DNA of 64,000 bases, from NCBI RefSeq assembly GCF_002153425.1, contig NZ_KZ119600.1:62001-126000 (forward strand), written 5' to 3'. How positions within the stretch are numbered: position 1 is the stretch's first letter; each line of letters opens with the position of its first letter. The notes beneath the pieces are model-generated. The model did no database searches. It saw only the letters and a program-made list of their open reading frames with translations, and had not been told where the DNA came from. The DNA comes from Litchfieldia alkalitelluris (GTDB lineage Bacteria > Bacillota > Bacilli > Bacillales > Salisediminibacteriaceae). Of this stretch, positions 6,044-53,454 are shown piece by piece. A program made the position numbers and the translations under genes.

Positions 6044-6484
6044 ATGAATGTAATCACAAACTTAGGAGAAAGAAGGAGAAAGAAACAGTGGAAATTTGAG
6101 CGTAATATGCTTCGCTCCTTGTCCATTGATGATATGAGGAAAGATGTAAACGAACACTTTTTTTCCCAACTCATTGGGGCTGAAACAGTGAGTAAGTTGT
6201 ATTTGATGGACTTCTGCCTTGATATTGGTATAGATGCTTATTTACTCGGTTCTGAATATGGTCGATTTGGGTACTATGGAGAAACACCGGATCAGGCACA
6301 AACAAGATGTGAAGAGGAATTAGAAACATTCACAACCCAAACAGCTAGCCAATTCTCGGCATGGTTCACATTAACAGAAGACGAGAAGTTCATTCAATTT
6401 GAAAGAAGTAGGGCGTTCATTAACCGTTGGTGGAAAAAAGGGTTCCAAGAAGGCGAGCGGCGTTACCGACTTCGTTTACATTAG
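6044..6484 (+). CDS. ybaK: YbaK-family protein (DUF2521)
   Basis: The protein has 146 residues and matches the B. subtilis YbaK type in length, composition and position directly before cwlD. The patterns MDFCLDIGIDAYLLGSEYG and FINRWWKKGFQEGERRYRLR are seen. The function is unknown. ATG at 6044 is chosen because GAGG lies nine bases upstream; the longer frame from TTG at 5996 has no ribosome site. The distance of 67 bp to cwlD allows its own or a shared sporulation promoter. Confidence 0.75.
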   Translation: MNVITNLGERRRKKQWKFERNMLRSLSIDDMRKDVNEHFFSQLIGAETVSKLYLMDFCLDIGIDAYLLGSEYGRFGYYGETPDQAQTRCEEELETFTTQTASQFSAWFTLTEDEKFIQFERSRAFINRWWKKGFQEGERRYRLRLH

Positions 6485-6492
6485 ATTTCATT

Positions 6493-6522
6493 GCATAAAA
6501 CATATACCTCGTCCCATATATA
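6493..6522 (+). promoter_or_regulatory. Possible forespore or mother-cell promoter of cwlD
   Basis: GCATAAA at 6493 and CATATATA at 6515, with 15 bp between, resemble the sigma-G/sigma-E elements expected before cwlD. The match is loose. Confidence 0.3.
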
Positions 6523-6551
6523 TAGGAATGGAAGTATAAGGGGGCGAGGTT

Positions 6552-7274
6552 ATGATTATAAAGGTTAAGTTTTGGAAGCTTGTGGTTCTAGGAGTTAGTA
6601 TTGGTCTTATCATTTCTCTTATTAGTATGTATTTAGAAAGTAGAACAGTTACTGGATGGGCCTTGCCTTTATCTGGGAATGTTATTGTATTAGACCCAGG
6701 ACACGGTGGGATAGATGGAGGAGCCTCATCGAAAAACGGAGATTTGGAAAAAGACATTGCATTGGACATCAGCCTGAAGCTTCGTGATTATTTACAGGAA
6801 GCGGGGGCACTAGTCATTATGACAAGAGAAGGTGACCATGATCTTGCTGCTGAAGGAACAAAGCGAGTGAGATCTAGGAAAGTAGAGGACTTAAAGAAGC
6901 GGGTTTCCATCATTAATGATTCAAATGCGGATCTGTTCATTAGTCTACATTTGAATGCTATTCAATCTCCAAAGTGGAGTGGTGCACAAACCTTTTATAA
7001 CCGTACGATTGAAGGGAATGAAGCACTAGCGAAACATATTCAAGGAGAGCTAATAAGAAATTTGGAAAACACAAATCGCCAAGCAAAACCAATTAACTCT
7101 GTTTACCTCATTAAAGAAGCAGTTACTCCAGGTGCTTTAGTGGAAGTAGGTTTTTTATCTAATCCGGGGGAAGCTGCGCGATTAGCTACAGATGACTACC
7201 AACAACAAGTGGCTGCTTCCATTTATGAGGGGATCCTTCGCTACAAGAGTGGAGAAGCACCACCATCTTATTAA
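6552..7274 (+). CDS. cwlD: Germination-specific N-acetylmuramoyl-L-alanine amidase CwlD
   Basis: The protein has 240 residues. After a membrane/signal helix (about 8-26) comes an Amidase_3 domain. Zinc ligands are visible in VIVLDPGHGGIDGGA (His), DLEKDIAL (Glu) and LFISLHLNA (His), and the catalytic Glu in LVEVGFLSNPGEA. CwlD works with a deacetylase to make muramic-delta-lactam in spore cortex, the mark read by cortex-lytic enzymes at germination. The ATG follows GGGGGCGAGG. Family length and gene order (ybaK before, mrp after) agree. Confidence 0.93.
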   Translation: MIIKVKFWKLVVLGVSIGLIISLISMYLESRTVTGWALPLSGNVIVLDPGHGGIDGGASSKNGDLEKDIALDISLKLRDYLQEAGALVIMTREGDHDLAAEGTKRVRSRKVEDLKKRVSIINDSNADLFISLHLNAIQSPKWSGAQTFYNRTIEGNEALAKHIQGELIRNLENTNRQAKPINSVYLIKEAVTPGALVEVGFLSNPGEAARLATDDYQQQVAASIYEGILRYKSGEAPPSY

Positions 7275-39959: not shown

Positions 39960-40163
39960 GATCATTAGTTAAAATGAACTAGAAGTAGCTAGAAGGCTCA
40001 AAATACATTGAATCAGAAAGGAAAGTAATGTCCTTAATGATTATCGTTTTGCATGCTATTTGACGAATGTTCGTCCAGATGAAAACTAATGTAATAATTG
40101 CGAGAATTTTGAAAAAGGTGGTAAAATTGTATATATATTGTTCACTGGGGGAGGACGTTGGAG

Positions 40164-40856
40164 ATGTTAAGGCTAGAGGAATCTTTGGACAAAATGTGGT
40201 ATTTATCAAAAATAGGGTTCTTTGAGTTTCTTCCACAAGAAGATTTAGAGAAACTAGGACCAATCATCCACCATAGGGATATTAAAAAGAATACAGTGAT
40301 ACAGAAACCAGATACGGTGGAGCGAAAACTTTTCTTTGTGAAGGAAGGCGCCCTAAAAATATACACGATAAATGAAGCGGGAAAAGTTTTTACCATCAGT
40401 CTATTAGGCCCTTATAGCACGTATGGACAGTTAAGTTCATTCTCCTTAGGTACGGAAAATGTCTTTATCGAAACATTATGTGATGTACATCTTTGCTCTA
40501 TTACAGAGGAGGATTTTCAAAAACTATTGAAGGACTATCCTGACCTCGTTTTTAAAGCGATGGAAATCTTAACAAAGCGATTGCATGAAAGGGAAAAAAT
40601 GCTTCAGATGATTGCGACCGGAAGTGTAAAAGAACAAATCATGCACCTCCTTGTGTCTATGGCAGATACATATGGAAAGAAGGATAATGCGTTTGTAGAT
40701 ATTCCTATCCCCTTGTCCCATCAAGAAATTGCAAACATGCTTGGAGTAACTAGGGAATCAGTTTCTACAAATATGTGTCGTCTCAAAAAAGAAGGAATGA
40801 TCCGAAGCACAGGGAAAAAGACAATCGAAGTGAAGCAACTCCAATCACTTAACTAA
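40164..40856 (+). CDS. Crp/Fnr-family transcriptional regulator
   Basis: The protein has 230 residues. A cyclic-nucleotide-binding-like beta barrel (about 25-135) is followed by a dimer helix and a winged helix with LSHQEIANMLGVTRESVSTN. No cluster of cysteines for an iron-sulfur centre is seen, so it is not a classic FNR. ATG at 40164 is chosen over TTG at 40158 by distance to GGGGGAGG. Sites of the family consensus lie before sinI-like, the 42.3-kb lipoprotein and apbE. Confidence 0.88.
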   Translation: MLRLEESLDKMWYLSKIGFFEFLPQEDLEKLGPIIHHRDIKKNTVIQKPDTVERKLFFVKEGALKIYTINEAGKVFTISLLGPYSTYGQLSSFSLGTENVFIETLCDVHLCSITEEDFQKLLKDYPDLVFKAMEILTKRLHEREKMLQMIATGSVKEQIMHLLVSMADTYGKKDNAFVDIPIPLSHQEIANMLGVTRESVSTNMCRLKKEGMIRSTGKKTIEVKQLQSLN

Positions 40857-41342: not shown

Positions 41343-41882
41343 ATGAATAAATCACGCAGAAGATTAGTTTACGGAGTGGTACTAGGAATTGTAGCTGTTA
41401 CTTCATTTATTGTAATCGTTGGTTGTCAGTCAAGCTCGAAAGAAGAAAAAAATATGGTACATAGCCCTGGAGGACAATACCCTTTCTATGAAGAGGTAGA
41501 GCAATTGTATACAAATGCTGATATCGTAGTTGAGGGCAAGGTTCAATCATCTGAAGCCAAAGAGGTTGTGACATCTACTGAGCTTAATGATTCAGAAATC
41601 ACGACAGTATCACAATTTGAAGTTTCAACTGTTTATAAGGGGGAAGTTTCGGTTGGCGAGATGCTTGAAGTGAAGCAAAGTGGCGGTGAAACGGAGGATA
41701 CGATTTTTGTGGTGGAGGGGGAACAGTACCTTGCTTCGGGAAAATCCTACGTATTGTTCCTTAATTCCTATGGCTACTTAATACACCCTGAGAAAGGACA
41801 ATATGTAGTGGGTGAGGATAACGAGCTGGAGTCGGTGGAGGGAAATGATTTTGTTTTGACAAGGGAAGATTTAGAATACTAG
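41343..41882 (+). CDS. Lipoprotein of unknown function
   Basis: The protein has 179 residues. A basic start, a hydrophobic stretch and the lipobox VGCQ (Cys about residue 28) indicate a lipid-anchored exported protein. The mature part has beta-type patterns (ADIVVEGKVQSSEAKEV, FEVSTVYKGEVSVGE, GKSYVLFLNSYG) like those of cardiolipin- or OB-like stress lipoproteins, but I cannot name the family. The ATG follows GGGACGGGAGGG at some distance. It is monocistronic. Confidence 0.65.
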   Translation: MNKSRRRLVYGVVLGIVAVTSFIVIVGCQSSSKEEKNMVHSPGGQYPFYEEVEQLYTNADIVVEGKVQSSEAKEVVTSTELNDSEITTVSQFEVSTVYKGEVSVGEMLEVKQSGGETEDTIFVVEGEQYLASGKSYVLFLNSYGYLIHPEKGQYVVGEDNELESVEGNDFVLTREDLEY

Positions 41883-41888
41883 TTTTTT

Positions 41889-42003
41889 AAAAAAATAGAG
41901 TTTGCAGATAAAATTGAGTGTGCAAATTAAATTGAGTTTGGTATTTAAAAATAGATTGCCAATAAAAGTAGAGTTTGCATATAAAAAGAGTTTTCATATT
42001 AAA
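41889..42003 (+). repeat. Short degenerate repeats GAGTTTGCA-ATAAAA
   Basis: About six degenerate units of 17-20 bp (GAGTTTGCAGATAAAATT, GAGTGTGCAAATTAAATT, GAGTTTGCATATAAAAA and others) follow the lipoprotein stop. Confidence 0.6.
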
Positions 42004-42036
42004 CAGGTGCTGTGATATCGCAGTACCTGTTTTTTA
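42004..42036 (+). terminator. Terminator after the 41.3-kb lipoprotein
   Basis: CAGGTGCTG pairs with CAGTACCTG (one mismatch), followed by TTTTTT. Confidence 0.8.
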
Positions 42037-42218: not shown

Positions 42219-42265
42219 TGATAAAATTCTATGTGTGAAAACTATCACAAGTTAAAATTTTAACT
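42219..42265 (+). promoter_or_regulatory. Promoter with perfect TGTGA-N6-TCACA operator and a second palindrome
   Basis: An extended -10, TGATAAAAT (42219-42227), is followed by TGTGA-AAACTA-TCACA at 42234-42249 and at once by the 16-bp palindrome AGTTAAAATTTTAACT at 42250-42265. The first dyad covers the predicted start, so it would suit a repressor. Confidence 0.6.
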
Positions 42266-42284: not shown

Positions 42285-43259
42285 ATGAAAATTAAAGCTT
42301 TGCTAGGTTTAGCTTTATCAGCACTTATTTTTGCAGCTTGTTCCGTAGATGAGCCAGAGGCAGATGCAGCAGAAGAAGCAGCTGGAGAAGACGCAGTATC
42401 AGGAGCTACACAAGTAATCGTTACTGATGAAGATTCATTCTTTAATGGTGTAAGTGAAAACGGAGCATGGATCATTATCTTTAACGACGATTTAACTGTT
42501 GATGAAGATATAGTATTAGCAGGTGTACACACTCACCGTGATGAGCCAGCTCGTAAGTTAGCTTTATATGAGCAAGATGCAGACCGTAATGTTACTGAGA
42601 GATTTACTTTAACTGCACCATCTTTAACTGTACAAAGCCCTAACACTCGTATCCAAGGTGGTACATTCGCAGGTGATGTTTTAGTAGAAGCTGAAGGTTT
42701 CAGTGTTGTAAATGCAACTGTTGAAGGAAATGTATATTTTGCTAGCCAAGAACTAATGGATTCCGCAGAAATTGGTGAAGATGGCGAAGTAACTGGTGCT
42801 TGGGAAGTAAACGAAGATAAAGCTACAGTAGCTGATGCAGTAACTGGAGCTACACAAGTAGTTGTAACTGATGAAGATTCATTTTTACAAGGTATTAGTG
42901 AAAACGGAGCATGGATCGTTATTTTCAACGACGATTTAACTGTTGATGAAGATGTAGTATTAGCAGGTGTGCACACACACCGTGACGAGCCAGCTCGTAA
43001 ATTAGCTCTATATGAGCAAGATGCAGATCGTAACGTAACTGCTAGATTTACATTAAATGTACCATCATTAACTGTACAAAGCCCTAACACTCGTATCCAA
43101 GGTGGTACGGTTGCTGGTGATGTTTTCGTAGAAGCTGAAGGTTTCAGTGTAGTAAATGCTACAGTTGACGGAAACGTATACTTTGCAAGTCAAGAATTAC
43201 TAGATGCTGCTGAAATCGGTGAAGATGGCGAAGTAACTGGTGCTTGGGAAGTACAATAA
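42285..43259 (+). CDS. Two-repeat lipoprotein with candidate flavinylation motifs
   Basis: The protein has 324 residues. Signal peptide and lipobox FAACS (Cys19) lead to an Ala/Glu linker and two nearly identical domains, offset by 148 residues. Each is preceded by D-A-V-[S/T]-G-A-T (residues 36-42 and 184-190), which fits the D-x-x-[ST]-G-A-[TS] site where ApbE attaches FMN. The domains contain SENGAWIIIFNDDLTVDED, HTHRDEPARKLALYEQDADR and beta-helix-like NTRIQGGTFAGDVLVEAEGF. It lacks a classic FMN_bind domain. It could act like PplA, an electron shuttle of the EET locus that follows (inference). The ATG follows AGGAGG. Confidence 0.7.
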   Translation: MKIKALLGLALSALIFAACSVDEPEADAAEEAAGEDAVSGATQVIVTDEDSFFNGVSENGAWIIIFNDDLTVDEDIVLAGVHTHRDEPARKLALYEQDADRNVTERFTLTAPSLTVQSPNTRIQGGTFAGDVLVEAEGFSVVNATVEGNVYFASQELMDSAEIGEDGEVTGAWEVNEDKATVADAVTGATQVVVTDEDSFLQGISENGAWIVIFNDDLTVDEDVVLAGVHTHRDEPARKLALYEQDADRNVTARFTLNVPSLTVQSPNTRIQGGTVAGDVFVEAEGFSVVNATVDGNVYFASQELLDAAEIGEDGEVTGAWEVQ

Positions 43260-43281: not shown

Positions 43282-43330
43282 AACAGGTTGATTGGCTGAT
43301 TTTGTTGGCCGATCTACCTGTTTTTTTGTT
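43282..43330 (+). terminator. Terminator after the two-repeat lipoprotein
   Basis: AACAGGT pairs with ACCTGTT at the base of a longer imperfect stem, followed by a T-run. Confidence 0.7.
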
Positions 43331-43628: not shown

Positions 43629-44195
<567 letters not shown>

Positions 44196-44462: not shown

Positions 44463-45443
44463 CTAGACTCTTCTATCTAGTAATCTCGTCATAATATCTA
44501 ATAGGATTGCTTTATGCTCACCGTCGGGCATTCTATTTAAGTGTTTCTTAGCCTTTTGCGTATATCTTTCAGCAAGGGCTTGTGCTTTTTCTACCCCGCG
44601 GTAGCGGCTGATCAGTTCAGAAATCTCAACCATGTCATCATCGGTTAAGGCTTCTTTTTTCTCCAGCAAAGGCATAAATGCACTTGCATTCTCTTGCATT
44701 GCATAGATCAATGGCAGGGTGTAAACACCTTGGCGAATGTCATTCATTACAGGTTTTCCAAGGGTAACTTGCTCCCCGTTATAATCTAGTATATCGTCCT
44801 TGATTTGAAAAGCCATACCAATATAGTGTCCCATATTCCAAGCATTCATCGCATCAGCACGCTTTGCACCACTTTCAATGGCACCAGAGTAGCAGCTGAT
44901 TGCGAAAAGCTGAGCTGTTTTACCAGCAACGCGAGATAAATAACTCTTTACACTAACACTTGGCTTAAAGCGTGAGTTTAACTGTGCCAATTCCCCACCA
45001 AGAATTTTTTCCATACTACGAGAGTTAAATTCAAGATGTGCGAGTGAAGTTGCATAACGGGAAAGGATATTAAAACAAATACAGAATAAATAGTCACCAG
45101 AATAAATAGCAAATTTATTGTCATATTGCGTGTGCAAAGTTGCGCGACCGTGACGTGTATCAGATTCATCAATGACATCATCGTGAACGAGTGTAGCCAT
45201 GTGCAAAGTCTCTAAAGCAGCAGCTACAGCAATACTCTTATCTTTATTATGCTCTGGACCAACTTGAGAGCATAGAAGGGAAAAGGCTGGACGAAGTAGC
45301 TTTCCTCCTGAATGCACAAGTTCCTTCAGCGTCGTTTCAACTTTTTTATCTCGAACACGAATATGTGACTCAATTAATTCAAGTACGGAAGCTAAATCAG
45401 CTTTTAAATTTGGGTGTGTATCCCACATTTGGTGTATACGCAT
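44463..45443 (-). CDS. Trans-polyprenyl diphosphate synthase, DmkB/HepT type
   Basis: The protein has 326 residues. The two aspartate-rich motifs HDDVIDESD and QIKDDILDY mark an all-trans polyprenyl synthase; the FARM region is HMATLVHDD. It would make the side chain for a demethylmenaquinone. As last gene of the ndh2-eetA-eetB operon it corresponds to DmkB of the Listeria EET locus, a second copy besides the usual hepS/hepT. The ATG follows AGAGGGAG. Confidence 0.88.
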   Translation of the reverse strand: MRIHQMWDTHPNLKADLASVLELIESHIRVRDKKVETTLKELVHSGGKLLRPAFSLLCSQVGPEHNKDKSIAVAAALETLHMATLVHDDVIDESDTRHGRATLHTQYDNKFAIYSGDYLFCICFNILSRYATSLAHLEFNSRSMEKILGGELAQLNSRFKPSVSVKSYLSRVAGKTAQLFAISCYSGAIESGAKRADAMNAWNMGHYIGMAFQIKDDILDYNGEQVTLGKPVMNDIRQGVYTLPLIYAMQENASAFMPLLEKKEALTDDDMVEISELISRYRGVEKAQALAERYTQKAKKHLNRMPDGEHKAILLDIMTRLLDRRV

Positions 45444-45464: not shown

Positions 45465-46007
45465 TTAATTGGGTTGTTCCCCTGATTCTCGTAAATATCT
45501 ATAGTAATGAAGTTTCTTTACATGGGTTAATAGGTAGTTTGCAGCAATACCAACAGCAATTCCTGACAAAACAGCTATAAAAGATAAGACTGGCAGATAG
45601 AGAAGGACGGTCCAAGTTTGAGCAATCCAACTAGCTACAAGCAGTTGTCCCACATTATGCAAGATGGCACCAGTTACACTAACTCCGATCATACTTACTC
45701 TAGAAGGACCTAGTTTGTGAACTGCCCACATACCGATGAAGCTTAGGACAGCGCCAGATGCACTGTACATAAACGTGGACATTGTACCTCCCAACAAGGA
45801 AGTTAATACAAGGCGTATTCCAACAACTTTGCCTGCATCCCTTGTAGACAAGGTATAGATGGCCATCACAGTGATGATATTTGCCAAACCAAGCTTGGCC
45901 CCAGGTGCAATGGCAAATGGAAACGGGATAGCCCTTTCCAATAGGCCAATAATGACGGCTTGAGAAGCCAATAAGGCAATGTATACGAGACGTTGGTTTT
46001 TTGTCAT
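45465..46007 (-). CDS. eetB: Gx-transporter / EetB-type membrane protein
   Basis: The protein has 180 residues with about five membrane helices. The signature PGAKLGLANIITVMAIY belongs to the Hpre_diP_synt_I (Gx transporter) family, related to ECF S-components. In Listeria the homologue EetB is part of the flavin-based EET locus. It lies between eetA and the prenyl synthase. The substrate is unknown; a link with the ECF module encoded on the other side is possible. Confidence 0.85.
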   Translation of the reverse strand: MTKNQRLVYIALLASQAVIIGLLERAIPFPFAIAPGAKLGLANIITVMAIYTLSTRDAGKVVGIRLVLTSLLGGTMSTFMYSASGAVLSFIGMWAVHKLGPSRVSMIGVSVTGAILHNVGQLLVASWIAQTWTVLLYLPVLSFIAVLSGIAVGIAANYLLTHVKKLHYYRYLRESGEQPN

Positions 46008-46035: not shown

Positions 46036-46458
46036 TTAATAGCTGATAATGATATCCTCAGTTTCTGAATTTCCTTGAACAGCTTTAATCTCTATAAAAA
46101 CACGGTGGTGCAAACAAATAATCGTTTGGCCTGGTCTTGAAATATAGTTAGTTAGTACACACACTTGGTCAGGACAGTCAGAAACCTTCATTCTAATTTG
46201 ATTATCTAGAATTTCAATTTGATGGCTGTCATGACATGGAATATCATCTAAATCTAAAATTTCATGTCCTATATTTCCAGTGAGTGTGACCTCTTTTATC
46301 ACCTTATTATCTACAGAAATAACAGCGATAAACTCTGAGTTATCTTCTGATATTCCTGCCTGCTGATAGCTGAAAACAGCAGAAGGTAGGAAAGATAATA
46401 GTAGAAGAGTGATAATAACCACCCAATCCCATCTTTTTACGATTTGAAAAAACGACAT
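46036..46458 (-). CDS. eetA: NusG domain II-containing protein, EetA type
   Basis: The protein has 140 residues. One N-terminal membrane helix (about 12-30) precedes a NusG_II domain with VSDCPDQVCVLTNYIS and GQTIICLHHRVFIEI. EetA is found with EetB in EET loci and is needed for electron export. It is co-directional with eetB, 28 bp away. Confidence 0.87.
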   Translation of the reverse strand: MSFFQIVKRWDWVVIITLLLLSFLPSAVFSYQQAGISEDNSEFIAVISVDNKVIKEVTLTGNIGHEILDLDDIPCHDSHQIEILDNQIRMKVSDCPDQVCVLTNYISRPGQTIICLHHRVFIEIKAVQGNSETEDIIISY

Positions 46459-46571: not shown

Positions 46572-48485
46572 TTAAGAAGCTTTTTTCACTTTTTCTCCTG
46601 CACCAGCATTCGCGTGGTCAAAGTCAGTGTAAATTGCTCGCTCCTTACCGTACCACCAGTCGCCAACTTTTCTTTGTAGGAAAGGTACAACCCAGTAGTC
46701 TAGACCCATCGTACGACCAGATCCGTTCATTAGTGCAATGGAAGCAGGTAATACCCAAAGCTGTCCCCAGCCAAGCATTGCAGTTAATGTAAACATTGCG
46801 ATAAGTGCAGCACTTGCAGCACCAGCTAACCAAGTAAATAATCCAAATACGATGGCTAAACCAACACCGATTTCGACTAGTAACATGAATTTTTGCATGA
46901 ATACTGACATTTCAGGTGTAGGTACGGAAATTCTCATTGCCCACTCCATGAAGAAAGGCATTTCGCTTAAAATAGGTGAAGCCCATTCACTTGCATCAGC
47001 GGAAGCACTTGTCATTCCGTCCGGATGTAACCATTCGAATGGCATGTTCACTTGGTTTGTTGTTACCCAAGAATCGCTACCGAATCCTGTGAATAGTTGC
47101 GGTAAACTTGATAGACTAGCTGTAGCTTGTTCCCACTTTTCATAACCCCATACTTTTTTGGCCGATTCCACTAACCAGAAACCACCGACGAATAATCGTA
47201 ATGGGAGACTCCATAATACGTTCCCGAATCTAGTAGGCAAGCCGCGGAAGACATTACGCTTATCTTTCGTATGGAAAAACTCGTGTGCAACATATTGCCA
47301 CATATAATAGCCACTTCTTAGTCCGAAGAAGTAATATAAATTCACTAAGTGCTTTACAAGGTTGGATAGCCATCCACTTAAATGAATACCATTTAAGTCG
47401 GCAACTCCGTAACGGGCTCCGATAGATACCATAATCCCGTGATACTTACCTTTAAATTCAACCTTTTCTCCACCACTGATATCAGCAGCAATGTTTTTTG
47501 CAGCTGTAGCCGCAGTTTGTTCTGCCGCTTCAACGATCTGTGGTGTAGGTGTGTCAGGCTCTTCTTCGAAATAGGCAAGATCTCCTACCACATAAACATC
47601 TTCTAATCCTTCAGCCTCCATGTGTGCATTAACCTTTAGGCGTCCTGCACGTCCTCTCGTCATACCGTAATCTTCTGTATCTGAGTTAGCTTGAACACCA
47701 GCAGTCCAGATAAGTGTATGAGTTGGAATTACTTCACCAGATTTTAAGATAACGTGGTCAGCATTTACTTCAATGATTGGTGACTTCTTAAGTACTTCTA
47801 CACCTTTTTTCACTAAATATGCTTCTGCTTTGTTTGCATCTTTGCGGTCAAGCATATTTAAGATCGTTGGTGCAGCCTCAATTACTTGTAAAGTGATTTC
47901 ACTTTCATCAATTTTATTGTCTTTTGCTAGTCTTTCTTTCCATTCAACTAGCTCACCTACCATTTCAATTCCTGTAAAACCTGAGCCGCAAACGCTGAAC
48001 GTAAGCATTGCTTTTCTTGTGTCTTCGTCATGAATTGTAGCGGCTTTACGAACAGTTGATTCAATATGGTGACGCAATCTGATCGCATCTTCCATGGACC
48101 AAAGTGTAAATCCATGCTCTTCAACACCTGGAGTTCCAAAATCATTTGGCTCTCCACCCATTCCTAAAATTAAGTAATCAAAATCAAATTCTGCATGTTC
48201 TGTAACAACGCGCTTCTTCTTGTGATCCACATGTGTCACATTGTCTGTGATTAGTTTCACTTTTGTTCTGTTAAATAAGCGACGTAAGTCTAGTTGAACA
48301 GCATCAGGTTCAACACGGTGTGCTGCAACTTCGTGTAATTCTGTCATCATTGTGTGATAAGAATGACGGTCTATTAATGTAATAGAAACGGACTCATCTT
48401 TCTTGTATTGCTTTGCTAACATTTTTGCTGCATGAACACCAGCATAGCCAGCACCAACAATGACAATGTTTTTCTTTTCTGCCAT
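46572..48485 (-). CDS. ndh2: Type II NADH dehydrogenase with DoxX-like membrane tail (EET Ndh2)
   Basis: The protein has 637 residues. The first 400 are an NDH-2 core: FAD site IVIVGAGYAGVHAAKML, HSYHTMMTELHEVAA, a second nucleotide fold CGSGFTGIEMVGELVEW, and DVYVVGDLAYF. The last 200 add about five membrane helices of DoxX type (VEIGVGLAIVFGLFTWLAGA), the mark of EET-specific Ndh2 enzymes. It would pass electrons from NADH to demethylmenaquinone. The ATG follows AAAAGGAG. It is first gene of the minus-strand operon. Confidence 0.92.
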   Translation of the reverse strand: MAEKKNIVIVGAGYAGVHAAKMLAKQYKKDESVSITLIDRHSYHTMMTELHEVAAHRVEPDAVQLDLRRLFNRTKVKLITDNVTHVDHKKKRVVTEHAEFDFDYLILGMGGEPNDFGTPGVEEHGFTLWSMEDAIRLRHHIESTVRKAATIHDEDTRKAMLTFSVCGSGFTGIEMVGELVEWKERLAKDNKIDESEITLQVIEAAPTILNMLDRKDANKAEAYLVKKGVEVLKKSPIIEVNADHVILKSGEVIPTHTLIWTAGVQANSDTEDYGMTRGRAGRLKVNAHMEAEGLEDVYVVGDLAYFEEEPDTPTPQIVEAAEQTAATAAKNIAADISGGEKVEFKGKYHGIMVSIGARYGVADLNGIHLSGWLSNLVKHLVNLYYFFGLRSGYYMWQYVAHEFFHTKDKRNVFRGLPTRFGNVLWSLPLRLFVGGFWLVESAKKVWGYEKWEQATASLSSLPQLFTGFGSDSWVTTNQVNMPFEWLHPDGMTSASADASEWASPILSEMPFFMEWAMRISVPTPEMSVFMQKFMLLVEIGVGLAIVFGLFTWLAGAASAALIAMFTLTAMLGWGQLWVLPASIALMNGSGRTMGLDYWVVPFLQRKVGDWWYGKERAIYTDFDHANAGAGEKVKKAS

Positions 48486-48754: not shown

Positions 48755-48787
48755 TATACTAACTCTGAATCTGTGATGTTTTTCACA
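48755..48787 (+). promoter_or_regulatory. Promoter element and perfect TGTGA-N6-TCACA site before apbE
   Basis: TATACT (48755-48760) is followed by TGTGA-TGTTTT-TCACA at 48772-48787, a perfect Crp/Fnr-type dyad that also partly fits Rex. If the start is near 48821, the site sits at -41.5; if TATACT is used, it is at the start. The 362-bp ndh2-apbE gap holds nothing else I can name. Confidence 0.65.
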
Positions 48788-48847
48788 ATGTAACAATGTA
48801 ATTATGAATGATATGTATGTTTTATATAAGGAAGGAGTTTGCGCATC

Positions 48848-49888
48848 ATGAAAAAAAGAGTGTGTTTAAGTTTCATTATAGTAGTGATAATTCTAACGGG
48901 GTGTCTATCGTCCAGTGCAGAAGAGATGAAGAATAATCCTCACCGTGAGACAGAGATATTGATGGGTACAGTAGTAACTTTAAGGATTTACGATAATGAC
49001 AAAGAGTATGTAATGGAAGAGGCATTTGAAAGAATCAGAGTGCTTGAAGATGTTATGTCAGTGAACGTTGAGGGATCTGAGATTGATAGAATTAATCAGG
49101 CTGCTGGTATAGAACCAGTGGAAGTCTCAGATAAAGTATTTAAGCTCATTCAAGATGGCGTTTACTACGGTGCAGATACAGATGGGATTTTTGATATTAC
49201 CATAGGGCCCCTTACTTCTTTATGGCAAATTGGATCAGATGAAGCAAGGAAGCCTTCACAAGATGAACTCGATGAAGTTCTTCCATTAATAGACTATGAA
49301 AAAATAGTACTAGATGAAGAGAATCAGACTGTATTTTTACAAGAAGCAGGAATGAGGCTTGACACAGGGGGAATAGCGAAAGGATATATCGCAGATCTAT
49401 TAGTTGATTTATTCATGGAGAAGGAAGTCGAATCTGCCATTATTGACCTAGGTGGCGATATTTATGTTATCGGTGAAAACCCGTCAGGAAGAGAATTTAC
49501 TATTGGGATACAAGACCCATTAACAACTAGGGGACAATCACTAGGGAATATTCAAGTGAAGGATAAATCGATCGTTACTTCAGGAATTTATGAGCGTTTT
49601 ATAGAGGTGGACGGAGTGGAATATCATCATATATTAGATCCATATACAGGTTATCCGATCATGAATGAATTAGCTGGTGTAACAATTATTTCGGAAAACA
49701 CCATTGATGGAGATGCATTATCCACAGCAGTTTTCGCAAAAGGTCTGCTAGATGGGTTGGAATATGTAGAGGAATTGGAAGGTGTAGATGCTATCTTCGT
49801 AACTCGCGATAATGAAGTGTATATTTCGTCAGGCATCACAGGTCAGTTTGAATTAACGAATGATGCGTTCAACATAATAGGAAACTAG
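48848..49888 (+). CDS. apbE: FAD:protein FMN transferase ApbE/FmnB
   Basis: The protein has 346 residues. A lipobox LTGCL makes it an exported lipoprotein. MGTVVTLRIYD, LDTGGIAKGYIAD, IDLGGDIYVIG and HHILDPYTGYP are the ApbE signatures. It links FMN to Thr/Ser of exported proteins; in EET loci (FmnB) the target is the lipoprotein PplA. ATG at 48848 is set by GAAGGAG ten bases upstream. It leads the plus-strand half of the EET locus. Confidence 0.95.
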   Translation: MKKRVCLSFIIVVIILTGCLSSSAEEMKNNPHRETEILMGTVVTLRIYDNDKEYVMEEAFERIRVLEDVMSVNVEGSEIDRINQAAGIEPVEVSDKVFKLIQDGVYYGADTDGIFDITIGPLTSLWQIGSDEARKPSQDELDEVLPLIDYEKIVLDEENQTVFLQEAGMRLDTGGIAKGYIADLLVDLFMEKEVESAIIDLGGDIYVIGENPSGREFTIGIQDPLTTRGQSLGNIQVKDKSIVTSGIYERFIEVDGVEYHHILDPYTGYPIMNELAGVTIISENTIDGDALSTAVFAKGLLDGLEYVEELEGVDAIFVTRDNEVYISSGITGQFELTNDAFNIIGN

Positions 49889-49912
49889 TAAGTGCTGGAA
49901 GGAGGAAGGATC

Positions 49913-50854
49913 ATGTCATTCTCAACGTTTTTGAAGCTTGTGGAAATCCAAACAAAAATAGCAAGTGTATTCCCATTTTTAGTAGGCTCTTTATTCGTCT
50001 ATTACCGCTACGATACGTTTAACTTATTGACGACCTTTATATTCTTTTGTTCCATGTTGTTATTCGACTTAACGACAACGGCAATCAATAATTATATGGA
50101 TTATCGAAAAGCAACTACGGACACATATAGAAGAGAAAGAAATATTATTGGACAGAAGCAAATTCCTGAATGGCTAGTAATTACAACAATCTTAAGCTTA
50201 TTGGTGGTCGCAACAGGTCTAGGATTGTGGCTAGTAGCTTTAACCGATCTAATCGTATTATTTATCGGTATGGCTTGCTTTGCTATCGGTATTTTATATA
50301 CATTTGGCCCGATTCCATTATCGCGCATGCCACTTGGTGAGGCGTTTTCTGGTGGAGCGATGGGCTTTGGAATTATCTTTTTAGTCGTCTATGTTAACGC
50401 TTATGATCAAGGGATTGCACAGTTTATATGGGAAGGACAGCAGATTAGTTTTTACGCCAATATTGTCTTACTGTTTGAGATCGCATTAATATCGATCCCT
50501 AGCATGCTGACCATTGCTAATTTGATGCTGGCAAATAACATCTGTGATCTAGAAGAGGATATTGCTAACCATCGCTTCACATTGCCATACTATTTAGGGA
50601 AACGCTGGTCACTAGTGCTATTTAACTTCTTATATGTCGTTTCATTCTTATCAATTGTTGCGGCAGTGGTATTGAATATTCTTCCTCCAGTTATGTTACT
50701 ATCGTTATTCATTATTTATCCTGTTTACTCATTAGTGCGTAAATTTAATGCGAAACAGGTGAAGTCAGAAACCTTTGAAGTTGCGGTGAAAAACTTAGTC
50801 CTAGTCAATGGATCAAGCGTCGCCCTACTCATCGTATCCGTGTTGATTTTTTAG
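49913..50854 (+). CDS. UbiA-family DHNA polyprenyltransferase, DmkA/MenA-like
   Basis: The protein has 313 residues with eight to nine membrane helices. The first Asp-rich motif appears as NNYMDYRKATTD, the second as NNICDLEEDI. It would join DHNA to the polyprenyl chain to form demethylmenaquinone. In the EET locus it is DmkA, a paralogue of the housekeeping MenA. ATG at 49913 follows GGAGGAAGG. The gap from apbE is 24 bp. Confidence 0.9.
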   Translation: MSFSTFLKLVEIQTKIASVFPFLVGSLFVYYRYDTFNLLTTFIFFCSMLLFDLTTTAINNYMDYRKATTDTYRRERNIIGQKQIPEWLVITTILSLLVVATGLGLWLVALTDLIVLFIGMACFAIGILYTFGPIPLSRMPLGEAFSGGAMGFGIIFLVVYVNAYDQGIAQFIWEGQQISFYANIVLLFEIALISIPSMLTIANLMLANNICDLEEDIANHRFTLPYYLGKRWSLVLFNFLYVVSFLSIVAAVVLNILPPVMLLSLFIIYPVYSLVRKFNAKQVKSETFEVAVKNLVLVNGSSVALLIVSVLIF

Positions 50855-51002: not shown

Positions 51003-51812
51003 ATGGGAACACCGATTTTACAAGTTGAGAATCTTTCCTTCCAATATGATAAAAGGACAGCTCATACATTATCCAATGTCTCTTTTACGGCCCAACAAGG
51101 GGAATGGCTCGGAATTGTTGGTAACAATGGATCTGGAAAATCAACGTTAGCCAAACTCCTTGTTGGCCTCTTACAGCCTGAGGAGGGACAAATTCACATC
51201 AATGGAATGAAAGTGAACCAAGAGAACATCTGGAAAGTCAGGAGTAAAATCGGATTAGTGTTCCAAAACCCGGACAACCAGTTCATCGGGACAACAGTGG
51301 AAGACGATGTGGCTTTCGGGTTAGAGAATTTAAATATGCCTTATGAGGACATGAAAGCAAGGGTAGATGAAGCCCTCAGTTTAGTTGGAATGACCGACTT
51401 TAGATATTATGATCCTTCCAATCTATCAGGTGGTCAAAAACAGCGGGTAGCAATTGCAGGAATCCTTGCATTAAAGCCCTCTATCCTTATTCTTGATGAG
51501 GCATTTGTCATGCTTGATCCAAAGAGCAGAAGAGAACTACTAGCAACGTTAAAAAAACTGAAGCAGGACGAAAATATCACGATTATATCTATTACTCATG
51601 ATATGAATGAGGCAGTGGATGCAGATCGAATTATTGTTTTAAAGGCAGGGAAGATTGTCAATAGTGGTACTCCAAGTGAGGTTTTCCATGAAGAACAAGA
51701 GCTGGAACCACCTTTTGCAGAACAGTTAAGAAGATTATTACAGGAGCGAAACGCAAAAGTTCCTCCTGAATTCATGACAGAACAAGAATTGGTGCGATGG
51801 CTATGCAAGTAA
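51003..51812 (+). CDS. ecfA1: ECF transporter ATPase EcfA1
   Basis: The protein has 269 residues. Walker A VGNNGSGKST, Q-loop FQNPDNQFIG, signature LSGGQKQRVAIAGIL and Walker B ILILDEAFVMLDP (with FVM in place of the usual TSM) are clear. The pairing with a second ATPase and EcfT makes an energy-coupling module for vitamin or flavin uptake. In EET loci it is thought to serve flavin handling with an S-component. It overlaps ecfA2 by 16 bp. Confidence 0.92.
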   Translation: MGTPILQVENLSFQYDKRTAHTLSNVSFTAQQGEWLGIVGNNGSGKSTLAKLLVGLLQPEEGQIHINGMKVNQENIWKVRSKIGLVFQNPDNQFIGTTVEDDVAFGLENLNMPYEDMKARVDEALSLVGMTDFRYYDPSNLSGGQKQRVAIAGILALKPSILILDEAFVMLDPKSRRELLATLKKLKQDENITIISITHDMNEAVDADRIIVLKAGKIVNSGTPSEVFHEEQELEPPFAEQLRRLLQERNAKVPPEFMTEQELVRWLCK

Positions 51813-52666
51813 AACTGTCAGGAGTGAAAGCAGACTATCAATTAGGACCTATACGGAGTCCGTTAGTTCTCAATGGTGTGGATTTAACGTTATCTTCAGG
51901 CTCACTTACAGCAGTGGTGGGACATACTGGTGCGGGGAAATCAAGCTTGTTAAAAATGCTAAATGGCTTACTTCTTCCTACTGAAGGGGAAGTGCAGGTA
52001 GGGGACGCTACGATTAAACCAAATCATTCTAAAAAGGCATTAAAGGAGATACGAAAAAAAGTGGGAATGGTCTTTCAATTCCCAGAATCTCAACTTTTTG
52101 CGGAAACAGTGGAAAAAGACATTTCCTTTGGCCCTCTCAACTTCGGTTTTTCCCGAGATGAAGTCTTGAAGCGGGCATACGAGGCTGCCATGCAAGTGGG
52201 TATCGATCCTGAAGGTGGAATGATGGAGAAGTCCCCGTTTACTTTATCTGGAGGACAGAAAAGGCGAGTGGCTATTGCAGGAATCCTGGCCATGGATCCT
52301 GACATTCTTGTTTTAGATGAGCCAGGGGCTGGACTTGATCCAGCTGGAAAAAAAGAGATTTTAACACTCATACAATCCTGGCATAAAACAAGGAATTTAA
52401 CGACTATCTTAGTCACGCATGACATGGAAGATGTGGTTCGATACGCAGACAATGTAGTCGTAATGGAAAAGGGTAAAGTAGTGATGCACGATACAGTATA
52501 TAACGTTTTTGCGGACGTTGAGAAACTCGCAGAATGGCATTTGGACCTTCCCGATGCAAGAAGGCTCCAATTAAAAATTGAGCATGAAACAGGTAAGCAG
52601 CTACCAGGTGTTTGCTTAACGCCGGAAGAACTGGCAGATGCTTTAATAGAGGTGGGATTAGTGTGA
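51797..52666 (+). CDS. ecfA2: ECF transporter ATPase EcfA2
   Basis: The protein has 289 residues. Walker A VGHTGAGKSS, Q-loop FQFPESQLFAETV, signature LSGGQKRRVAIAGIL and Walker B ILVLDEPGAGLDP are present. ATG at 51797 or 51803 both work. It overlaps ecfT by 4 bp. A second ecfA copy is usual in the ribosomal protein cluster of Bacillus; this set is separate and dedicated to the EET locus (inference). Confidence 0.92.
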   Translation: MAMQVKLSGVKADYQLGPIRSPLVLNGVDLTLSSGSLTAVVGHTGAGKSSLLKMLNGLLLPTEGEVQVGDATIKPNHSKKALKEIRKKVGMVFQFPESQLFAETVEKDISFGPLNFGFSRDEVLKRAYEAAMQVGIDPEGGMMEKSPFTLSGGQKRRVAIAGILAMDPDILVLDEPGAGLDPAGKKEILTLIQSWHKTRNLTTILVTHDMEDVVRYADNVVVMEKGKVVMHDTVYNVFADVEKLAEWHLDLPDARRLQLKIEHETGKQLPGVCLTPEELADALIEVGLV

Positions 52667-53454
52667 ATAAGCTAATATTAGGACGCTATTTCCCTGGGGA
52701 ATCCGTGTTACATTACATGGATCCAAGGGCAAAGCTCCTAGCTGGATTCATTTTTATATTTATCGTTTTCTTGGCGAGTAATTGGCAGACATTAGCTCTT
52801 CTCACTAGCTTCACCTTTTTTGTGATGTGTCTATCAGGTGTCTCCTTCAAAGTATATCTCCGCGGAGTCAGGCCATTAATTTGGCTCATTTTGTTTACTG
52901 TTTTTCTGCAAGTCTTATTTCGCTCTGGAGGAACGGTTTATTTTGATTGGGGCCCAATAACCATCTCTCACAATGGCATCATTAACGGTGTATATATCTT
53001 TTTCAGGTTCGTATTAATTATCTTTTTTACAACTGTGATTACTTTGACTACGAAGCCAATTGAGTTGACGGACGGCATCTACTTTTTACTGAGTCCCCTT
53101 GAAAAACTAAAGGTTCCTGTTGATGAAATAGCATTAATGCTATCCATATCCTTAAGGTTCATTCCAAACCTGTTGGACGAAACACAAAAGGTCATGGATG
53201 CGCAGCGAGCTAGGGGAACGGAATTCGGGGAGGGTTCCTTACTAAAACAAATGAAAACACTAGTCCCCATCTTTCTGCCGTTATATGAGAGTTCCCTCAA
53301 TCGGGCAGAGGATATGGCCAATGTGATGGAGGTTAGGGGATATCAGTCTGGACTGACAAGATCCAACTTTCGCAGACTAACTTGGCACACCAAGGACACA
53401 CTTGCACTAGTGACGATGGCCCTTCTTACATTGGGACTGCTCCTTTTACAGTAG
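52663..53454 (+). CDS. ecfT: ECF transporter transmembrane component EcfT
   Basis: The protein has 263 residues with about five membrane helices. The coupling motif AQRARGTEF and the helix around VMEVRGY correspond to the two Ala-Arg-Gly motifs of EcfT. GTG at 52663 overlaps the ecfA2 stop and follows AGAGGTGG. A strong terminator follows. Confidence 0.92.
   Translation: MNKLILGRYFPGESVLHYMDPRAKLLAGFIFIFIVFLASNWQTLALLTSFTFFVMCLSGVSFKVYLRGVRPLIWLILFTVFLQVLFRSGGTVYFDWGPITISHNGIINGVYIFFRFVLIIFFTTVITLTTKPIELTDGIYFLLSPLEKLKVPVDEIALMLSISLRFIPNLLDETQKVMDAQRARGTEFGEGSLLKQMKTLVPIFLPLYESSLNRAEDMANVMEVRGYQSGLTRSNFRRLTWHTKDTLALVTMALLTLGLLLLQ

Follow-up and report, generated by a model that had tools for sequence, protein, structure and literature searches.

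Structure of the locus

The window, i.e., the whole 64-kb stretch of DNA that was analysed, contains an open reading frame for a putative lipoprotein in the neighbourhood of an EET locus. The features of this region are presented in Table 1. The translated product comprises 324 aa, and its N-terminus, judged by eye, is like that of Gram-positive lipoproteins, with a hydrophobic stretch followed by FAAC, the cysteine of which (Cys19) is invariant across alignment A1 (five two-domain proteins, including that of the window). Translation confirmed the two D-A-V-[ST]-G-A-T motifs reported in the preliminary description, the two near-identical domains each being directly preceded by one of them, and the numbering of the candidate acceptors, Thr42 and Thr190, was correct (DAVSGAT at residues 36-42 and DAVTGAT at 184-190). 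The fit to the ApbE attachment site, also claimed there, is exact in both copies, which match the consensus D-x-x-[S/T]-G-A-[S/T] given in the accessible part of PMC12052999. The two repeats could be paired over 141 codons, of which 98 are identical and 43 differ, with 27 synonymous (silent) changes and 16 amino-acid changes.

As previously described, apbE (starting at 48839) is located 5.6 kb from the lipoprotein gene and inside the EET locus. A spermidine acetyltransferase-like gene (43629-44195; NF053587 above cut-off) separates the lipoprotein gene from this locus. Regarding the ECF genes, EcfA exceeds the TIGR04520 cut-off, the T subunit matches TIGR02454 below the cut-off, and EcfA' was named from its position and translation only, without a profile scan. 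Because terminator-like hairpins are found both before (42001-42032) and after the lipoprotein gene, it is predicted to be transcribed, probably, alone. Just upstream, at 41343-41882, there is a second lipoprotein-like ORF (179 aa, by eye), for which no family over cut-off was found.

Table 1 Features of the lipoprotein gene region and the EET locus (positions in the window)
Feature	Position	Strand	Basis
Perfect TGTGA-N6-TCACA palindrome, 35 bp ahead of the ATG and directly following a promoter-like -10	42234..42249	.	
Candidate lipoprotein gene, two copies of a ~130-residue beta-rich domain, ApbE-type site before each	42285..43259	+	ORF/translation, motif, co-occurrence, models
Putative lipoprotein signal peptide, end FAAC (Cys19)	42285..42341	+	By eye from translation
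Site 1, D36-A-V-S-G-A-T42	42390..42410	+	Translation; consensus from PMC12052999 (accessible part)
Domain 1, residues 46-177	42420..42815	+	AlphaFold2, mean pLDDT 94.4 with site 1 included
Site 2, D184-A-V-T-G-A-T190	42834..42854	+	Translation
Domain 2, residues 194-324	42864..43256	+	Family alignment, AlphaFold2 model
Terminator-like hairpin after the lipoprotein gene	43290..43314	+	
DmkB-type polyprenyl diphosphate synthase	44463..45443	-	PF00348, E 4.7e-64
EetB	45465..46007	-	PF07456, E 2.7e-48
EetA (NusG_II)	46036..46458	-	PF07009, E 4.4e-25
Ndh2-type NADH dehydrogenase	46572..48485	-	PF07992, E 3.6e-40
Second perfect palindrome TGTGA-N6-TCACA, divergent ndh2/apbE intergenic region	48772..48787	.	
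ApbE/FmnB flavin transferase, lipoprotein by eye	48839..49888	+	PF02424, E 1.5e-88
DmkA/MenA prenyltransferase	49892..50854	+	NF009926, 373 bits (cut-off 316)
ECF genes: EcfA, EcfA', FmnA-type T subunit	51003..53454	+	ORF list and NCBIfam

Predicted fold of the domain

No Pfam or NCBIfam family scored above its cut-off for the lipoprotein, and a comparison of alignment A2 with seven FMN_bind domains in hhalign gave a probability of 0.5%. The earlier statement that the domains are not classic FMN_bind thus holds as far as sequence comparison goes (no PF04205 match), and the possibility of an FMN_bind or catalytic domain was rejected, none being found above cut-off by Pfam, NCBIfam or hhalign. 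Bactofilin (PF04519) reached 16.3 bits against the window protein, below its cut-off of 27.9. In a scan of 57 domains, 23 had a bactofilin match with an E value no higher than 1 (lowest 8.1e-07), with no such match for the window's first domain.

The AlphaFold2 model of the two-domain protein (8 sequences; pLDDT 80.8, pTM 0.50) has pLDDT values below 50 in residues 1-40 and 182-189, i.e., in the linkers, where most of each site is located. The model of a single domain plus site (57 sequences; pLDDT 94.4, pTM 0.88) consists mainly of short strands, and the mean pLDDT of its first ten residues is 64. Foldseek searches of the PDB with both models returned nothing with E <0.05 among the best 50 matches of each; these non-significant matches were mainly to beta-helix proteins (ice-binding proteins, pectate lyases) and to the SV2 luminal domain. 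The viral library likewise gave nothing significant, and the best E value in a sequence search of solved structures was only 0.14. From the models we infer a small beta-solenoid that may be distantly bactofilin-like.

Candidate substrates of ApbE in the genome

PplA is built of FMN_bind-type domains. The whole genome to which the window belongs (4.88 Mb) contains a single match to ApbE (PF02424) and no match to FMN_bind (PF04205) anywhere; therefore, PplA is lacking, and the earlier claim of an EET locus without PplA is borne out genome-wide. Among the Listeria-type EET genes listed in the available portion of PMC10572741, only pplA is missing.

Is the lipoprotein the only protein on which this ApbE could act? 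A search of both strands of the genome for the DNA pattern encoding D-x-x-[ST]-G-A-T gave four occurrences, the same number as for its backwards control; thus, it is not enriched at the DNA level. Two of the occurrences are the lipoprotein sites; in the 3-kb loci of the remaining two, no ORF of at least 40 aa has the pattern in frame. In the six-frame ORFs of the window, the sole other D-x-x-[ST]-G-A-[ST] sits in a 28-aa frame. Within the D-x-x-[ST]-G-A-T and FMN_bind searches, the lipoprotein would be the sole candidate substrate of the sole ApbE; D-x-x-[ST]-G-A-S, DUF2271, DUF3570, Flavodoxin_4 and FMN_red lay outside the genome-wide search. The presence of ApbE in the same genome, a criterion of membership among ApbE substrates, is fulfilled.

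Co-occurrence with apbE and EET genes

Among 35 genomes of the window's family (own included), five carry the lipoprotein and five carry apbE, and these are the same five (hypergeometric 3e-6); FMN_bind is present in four of the 35, three of them among the lipoprotein carriers. In a sample of 398 genomes of the class, 20 carriers were found, two of which (G100 and G149; weak partial matches of 20 bits without an N-terminal site) were dropped. All 18 remaining carriers possess apbE (base 176/398) and EetA (base 38/398; 5e-21 by genome), and 16 of them possess FMN_bind (base 76/398). By genus, the figures for EetA are 5/5 carriers vs 15/146 (6e-6). These statistics are uncorrected for kinship, and 16 of the 18 carriers come from one family, f20, which is probably Paenibacillaceae. 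Within f20, the domain occurs in 16 of 17 EetA-positive genomes vs none of 17 genomes with apbE but without EetA. The domain tracks the EET genes more tightly than apbE as such. Since it follows EET, which in all 38 EetA-positive genomes of the class includes apbE, co-occurrence alone does not prove flavinylation, and we set it aside as a proof.

Three of these 38 genomes have no FMN_bind: G405, which is also without the domain, and two that carry it, namely G432 and the genome of the window. G405 is the only one with apbE that has neither FMN_bind nor the domain, and it may hold another, unknown ApbE substrate.

A scan of GTDB genomes with A1 and two peptide patterns yielded 40 loci, both in Bacilli (Alkalibacterium, Saccharibacillus, Desemzia, Paenibacillus, Aquibacillus, Saliterribacillus, Texcoconibacillus and Lacticigenium) and beyond them (Clostridia, Halanaerobium and two MAGs named Spirochaetia and Phycisphaerales). 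Of these genomes, 39 have apbE and 31 have FMN_bind; the nine without FMN_bind are four of Saccharibacillus, one each of Aquibacillus and Saliterribacillus, two of Alkalibacterium and the apbE-negative MAG. The whole 3,379-bp contig of this Phycisphaerales MAG (L059/L062 pair) matches, at 99.8% identity, a contig of an apbE-positive Bacillota MAG. Because a near-identical contig sits in an apbE-positive MAG of similar sample name, the apbE-negative one appears, probably, to have been mis-binned. Homologues in genomes without apbE, which according to the preliminary description would have refuted its proposal, thus amount to 0/5 in the family, 0/18 in the class and 1/40 in the scan, the last being this MAG. 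Replacement of PplA by the domain is not general, since FMN_bind is also present in 16/18 class carriers and 31/40 scan genomes.

A 40% identical domain is also encoded in the unannotated plasmid record NZ_CP151545.1, at 6224-6634; the label of this record, Pseudomonas aeruginosa, is odd for a domain family that is mostly Gram-positive.

Physical linkage to EET genes was observed in five genomes: that of the window, Texcoconibacillus (domain gene next after eetB, gap of ~190 bp), Saliterribacillus (3.9 kb from dmkB), and G015 and G460 (6.3 and 6.2 kb from apbE, respectively). The domain gene is distant from apbE in G031 and G033. The fetched flanks of the other 38 scan loci (out of 40), some of them short, contained no homologue of apbE, ndh2, eetA, eetB, dmkA or dmkB; generic ABC ATPases are present in a few of them.

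Conservation of the site across the domain family

Another important question is whether the site itself is conserved. We compiled 90 unique domains with an intact N-terminus from the GTDB scan, the window's family and the class sample, leaving out truncated domains, the window copies L064 and L083, the Texcoconibacillus copy L028, and L062, whose protein is that of L059. A site of the form [DE]-x-x-[ST]-[GAST]-[AP]-[ST] precedes the domain in 87 of them, the three sequences off pattern being DAVTSSS, DAVGSAS and DEVTFAP. Conservation of the GAT threonines is partial: all five two-domain proteins of A1 have both of them, whereas canonical GA[ST] is found in only 24 of the 90 domains, with Thr, Ser or Ala in place of Gly in 63. 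In 88 tabulated sites, the Gly position holds nothing other than G, T, S or A; the degenerate domain L089 has F.

The information content of 88 segments is 3.96 bits for D, 3.57 for [ST], 3.96 for Ala and 3.55 for the acceptor, and only 1.15-1.41 bits for the eight residues upstream. The alignment was here anchored on the motif, which gives the motif an advantage. An alignment anchored at the start of the domain leaves 1.9-2.8 bits in columns -8 to -2 vs 1.0-1.4 further upstream, a signal made less sharp by an offset of two residues between GAT-class and xAS-class sites. The conservation of the site in a hypervariable linker, together with the low model confidence there, suggests a recognition site and not a part of the fold.

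Canonical sites were found in the window's own family, in Alkalibacterium, Clostridium polynesiense and G460, in one of two Aquibacillus domains and in two of three Niameybacter domains. In the Niameybacter protein (L027:9401-11311), three domains with SAS, GAS and GAS sites are accompanied by a stretch that looks LysM-like by eye and by a further DAVSGAS at the N-terminus. In Alkalibacterium (L024, L029, L030, L032, L033, L041 and L044), there is a tandem gene pair with one GAT site and one AAS site, which offers a natural comparison of site types. G015, a member of the window's genus, has a two-domain GAT protein (L003) and a one-domain TTAS paralogue (L007) far from the EET locus.

All 14 FMN_bind stretches fetched from 11 f20 genomes (only part of the FMN_bind matches of these genomes) have an ORF with D-x-x-[ST]-G-A-[ST], and at the domain sites of the same genomes Gly is replaced by T, S or A, with a degenerate F-A-P in L089. 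Because 63/90 domains are without Gly while FMN_bind in such genomes keeps it, flavinylation may be limited to the GAT/GAS members. In the others, the motif may be only a poor target for ApbE or may not be an ApbE site at all, and the ApbE reading is doubtful there. For the window's own protein, this doubt is small, since it has two exact sites.

A palindrome shared by the lipoprotein and ndh2/apbE promoters

Perfect TGTGA-N6-TCACA occurs exactly twice in the window (shuffle mean 0.02), at the positions given in Table 1; with one mismatch allowed, four occurrences were counted vs 2.46 expected, so only the perfect palindromes are informative. Perfect copies at both promoters are also present in G015 (L003 and L009) and Saliterribacillus (L054), and Texcoconibacillus (cf. 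L028) has a perfect copy at apbE and a one-mismatch copy at the lipoprotein gene. No perfect box was found in the stretches fetched around apbE in G460, G432 and G450. The 50 upstream regions of domain genes contained nine perfect and three one-mismatch boxes vs 0.5% and 0.8%, respectively, of 1000 stretches of 200 bp drawn at random from the same loci. Several of the nine perfect boxes come from one genus, Alkalibacterium, and for some of the 50 regions the start codon is uncertain, one region belongs to a gene fragment (L055) and one MAG contig is represented twice.

Since many boxes sit just after -10-like elements (e.g., TTGACA-17-TATGAT and then the box in Alkalibacterium), the palindrome suggests a repressor operator. 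The sequence fits the CRP/FNR and, partly, the Rex operator consensus, and both redox-sensing Rex and the Crp/Fnr-family protein encoded at 40158-40856 are possible. A search of openly licensed papers on Fnr boxes found nothing on Bacillus. The lipoprotein and ndh2/apbE genes probably belong to an EET regulon with a redox-sensing repressor, the regulator being inferred. The Crp/Fnr-family gene lies 1.4 kb upstream of the lipoprotein gene, and a homologue was seen near two domain-gene copies in a Paenibacillus (L053:5092-5838).

Proposed role of the lipoprotein and alternatives

These data raise the question of what the lipoprotein does. We consider it likely that it is an envelope electron carrier flavinylated by ApbE and standing in for PplA; no flavin has been measured. 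The suggestion of a new type of ApbE substrate is supported for the GAT/GAS members; neither of the refuting conditions (homologues in genomes without apbE, no conservation of the GAT threonines) holds, and no computation shows a covalent flavin. According to the proposed mechanism, the protein would be exported, secretion being inferred, and anchored in the membrane as a lipoprotein, and the ApbE/FmnB encoded nearby would attach FMN from FAD to Thr42 and Thr190, giving two FMN groups, each on a flexible linker next to a solenoid domain. These groups would accept electrons from the Ndh2-fed quinone pool (demethylmenaquinone) and donate them to acceptors outside the cell, e.g., Fe(III) or dissolved shuttles. 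It would follow from this attachment and electron path that the job of PplA is done by unrelated domains. The flavinylation and electron steps are known for the Listeria system, and their transfer to the window protein is inferred by analogy. The gene, putatively transcribed alone, would nevertheless share its type of operator with the ndh2/apbE region. An association with the EET locus, the criterion for a PplA-like protein, is met through linkage, co-occurrence and the palindrome, while the acetyltransferase gene in between counts against this reading. The surface lipoprotein is probably the missing last electron carrier in bacteria without the usual one.

Could the site serve something other than ApbE? 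An EET-associated envelope lipoprotein may ancestrally have had a structural or binding role, e.g., as a bactofilin-like solenoid organising EET partners or as a non-covalent binder of flavin or metal, with the stretch recognised by a non-ApbE factor and only the GAT/GAS lineages, or none, flavinylated. We regard this as rather improbable. It draws support from the many domains without Gly, although the FMN_bind stretches of the f20 genomes all keep it, from the closer association with EetA than with apbE, and from the bactofilin matches. However, a Gly position restricted to four residues (apart from L089) is expected if the site has to fit ApbE, GAS and SAS sites exist within one Niameybacter protein, a Gly-to-Ala change still left ~50% flavinylation in one target (accessible part of PMC12052999), and the window's protein has the exact site twice.

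A carrier is also not the only protein that FmnB modifies: in Listeria, its targets include FrdA, an extracellular reductase whose gene is not part of the locus (PMC9973259, as far as available). The lipoprotein might accordingly be a terminal flavin reductase with a substrate of its own, FrdA/UrdA-like, and not a general shuttle, but this seems very unlikely to us; no catalytic domain was detected by Pfam, NCBIfam or the fold search (best 50 of each), and small, repeated, linker-tethered sites suit a carrier. Least credible of all is a chance motif in an ordinary surface beta-solenoid protein near the EET locus. The equal counts of the DNA pattern and its control and the unrelated gene in between are compatible with chance, but it is largely refuted by the motif in 87/90 domains within a hypervariable linker and by the 18/18 co-occurrence with EetA, along with the shared palindrome and the linkage in five genomes.

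Beyond the window's protein, the entire domain family, from Bacilli to Clostridia and Halanaerobium, might constitute a new class of covalent flavin carriers of Gram-positive EET, with ApbE accepting D-x-x-[ST]-[GAST]-A-[ST]. We put this forward tentatively and would sooner expect it to fail than to hold. If it is true, flavoprotein repertoires counted by FMN_bind or SGAT alone are systematically too small. In the accessible part of PMC8238504, 2,571 genomes (17%) are stated to encode ApbE but no FMN_bind protein, and the domain family is a concrete, testable candidate for part of this gap. The GAT, GAS, TAS and SAS sites form a natural series that bears on the requirements of ApbE.

Comparison with known systems

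Compared with FMN_bind proteins (PF04205), the window protein shares the D-x-x-[ST]-G-A-[ST] site, and an extracytoplasmic location like theirs is predicted for it from the lipobox (by eye), but it has neither a profile match nor appreciable hhalign similarity (see above), and its sites precede the domain, whereas they lie inside the domain in the FMN_bind domains aligned here (A5). With bactofilin (PF04519), it shares the small beta-solenoid inferred from the models and weak profile similarity. Bactofilin is a cytosolic polymer; in contrast, the window protein would be an exported lipoprotein (by eye) with an N-terminal site.

Other ApbE substrates with non-FMN_bind folds are known: according to the available parts of the sources, DUF2271 and DUF3570 were found via apbE genes without FMN_bind (PMC8238504), and Flavodoxin_4 and FMN_red are flavinylated (PMC11334425). 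These are different families from the window protein, in which none of the four has a Pfam match. As far as the accessible parts of PMC8238504, PMC11334425, PMC12052999, PMC10572741, PMC8837199 and PMC9973259 go, the fold of the domain is not among the ApbE substrates described there. No description of the domain family was found in the openly licensed PMC literature, judged mainly by titles and the openings of abstracts.

The closest parallel is the Listeria system, in which FmnA and EetB have a role in exporting FAD, and PplA receives FMN from FmnB at two positions (PMC9973259, available part). Like PplA, which is a lipoprotein (PMC8837199, available part), the window protein is a putative lipoprotein with two candidate flavinylation sites, and both go with ndh2, eetA, eetB, dmkA, dmkB, apbE/fmnB and ECF genes (gene list in the accessible part of PMC10572741). 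Unlike PplA, it has no FMN_bind domain, and its gene lies outside the main cluster. Alkalibacterium pelagium from indigo vats offers a further comparison: EET genes but no pplA are reported for it in the accessible part of PMC10572741, and in the GTDB scan its locus L032 contains a relative with EVTTGAT, beside one with DAVTAAS.
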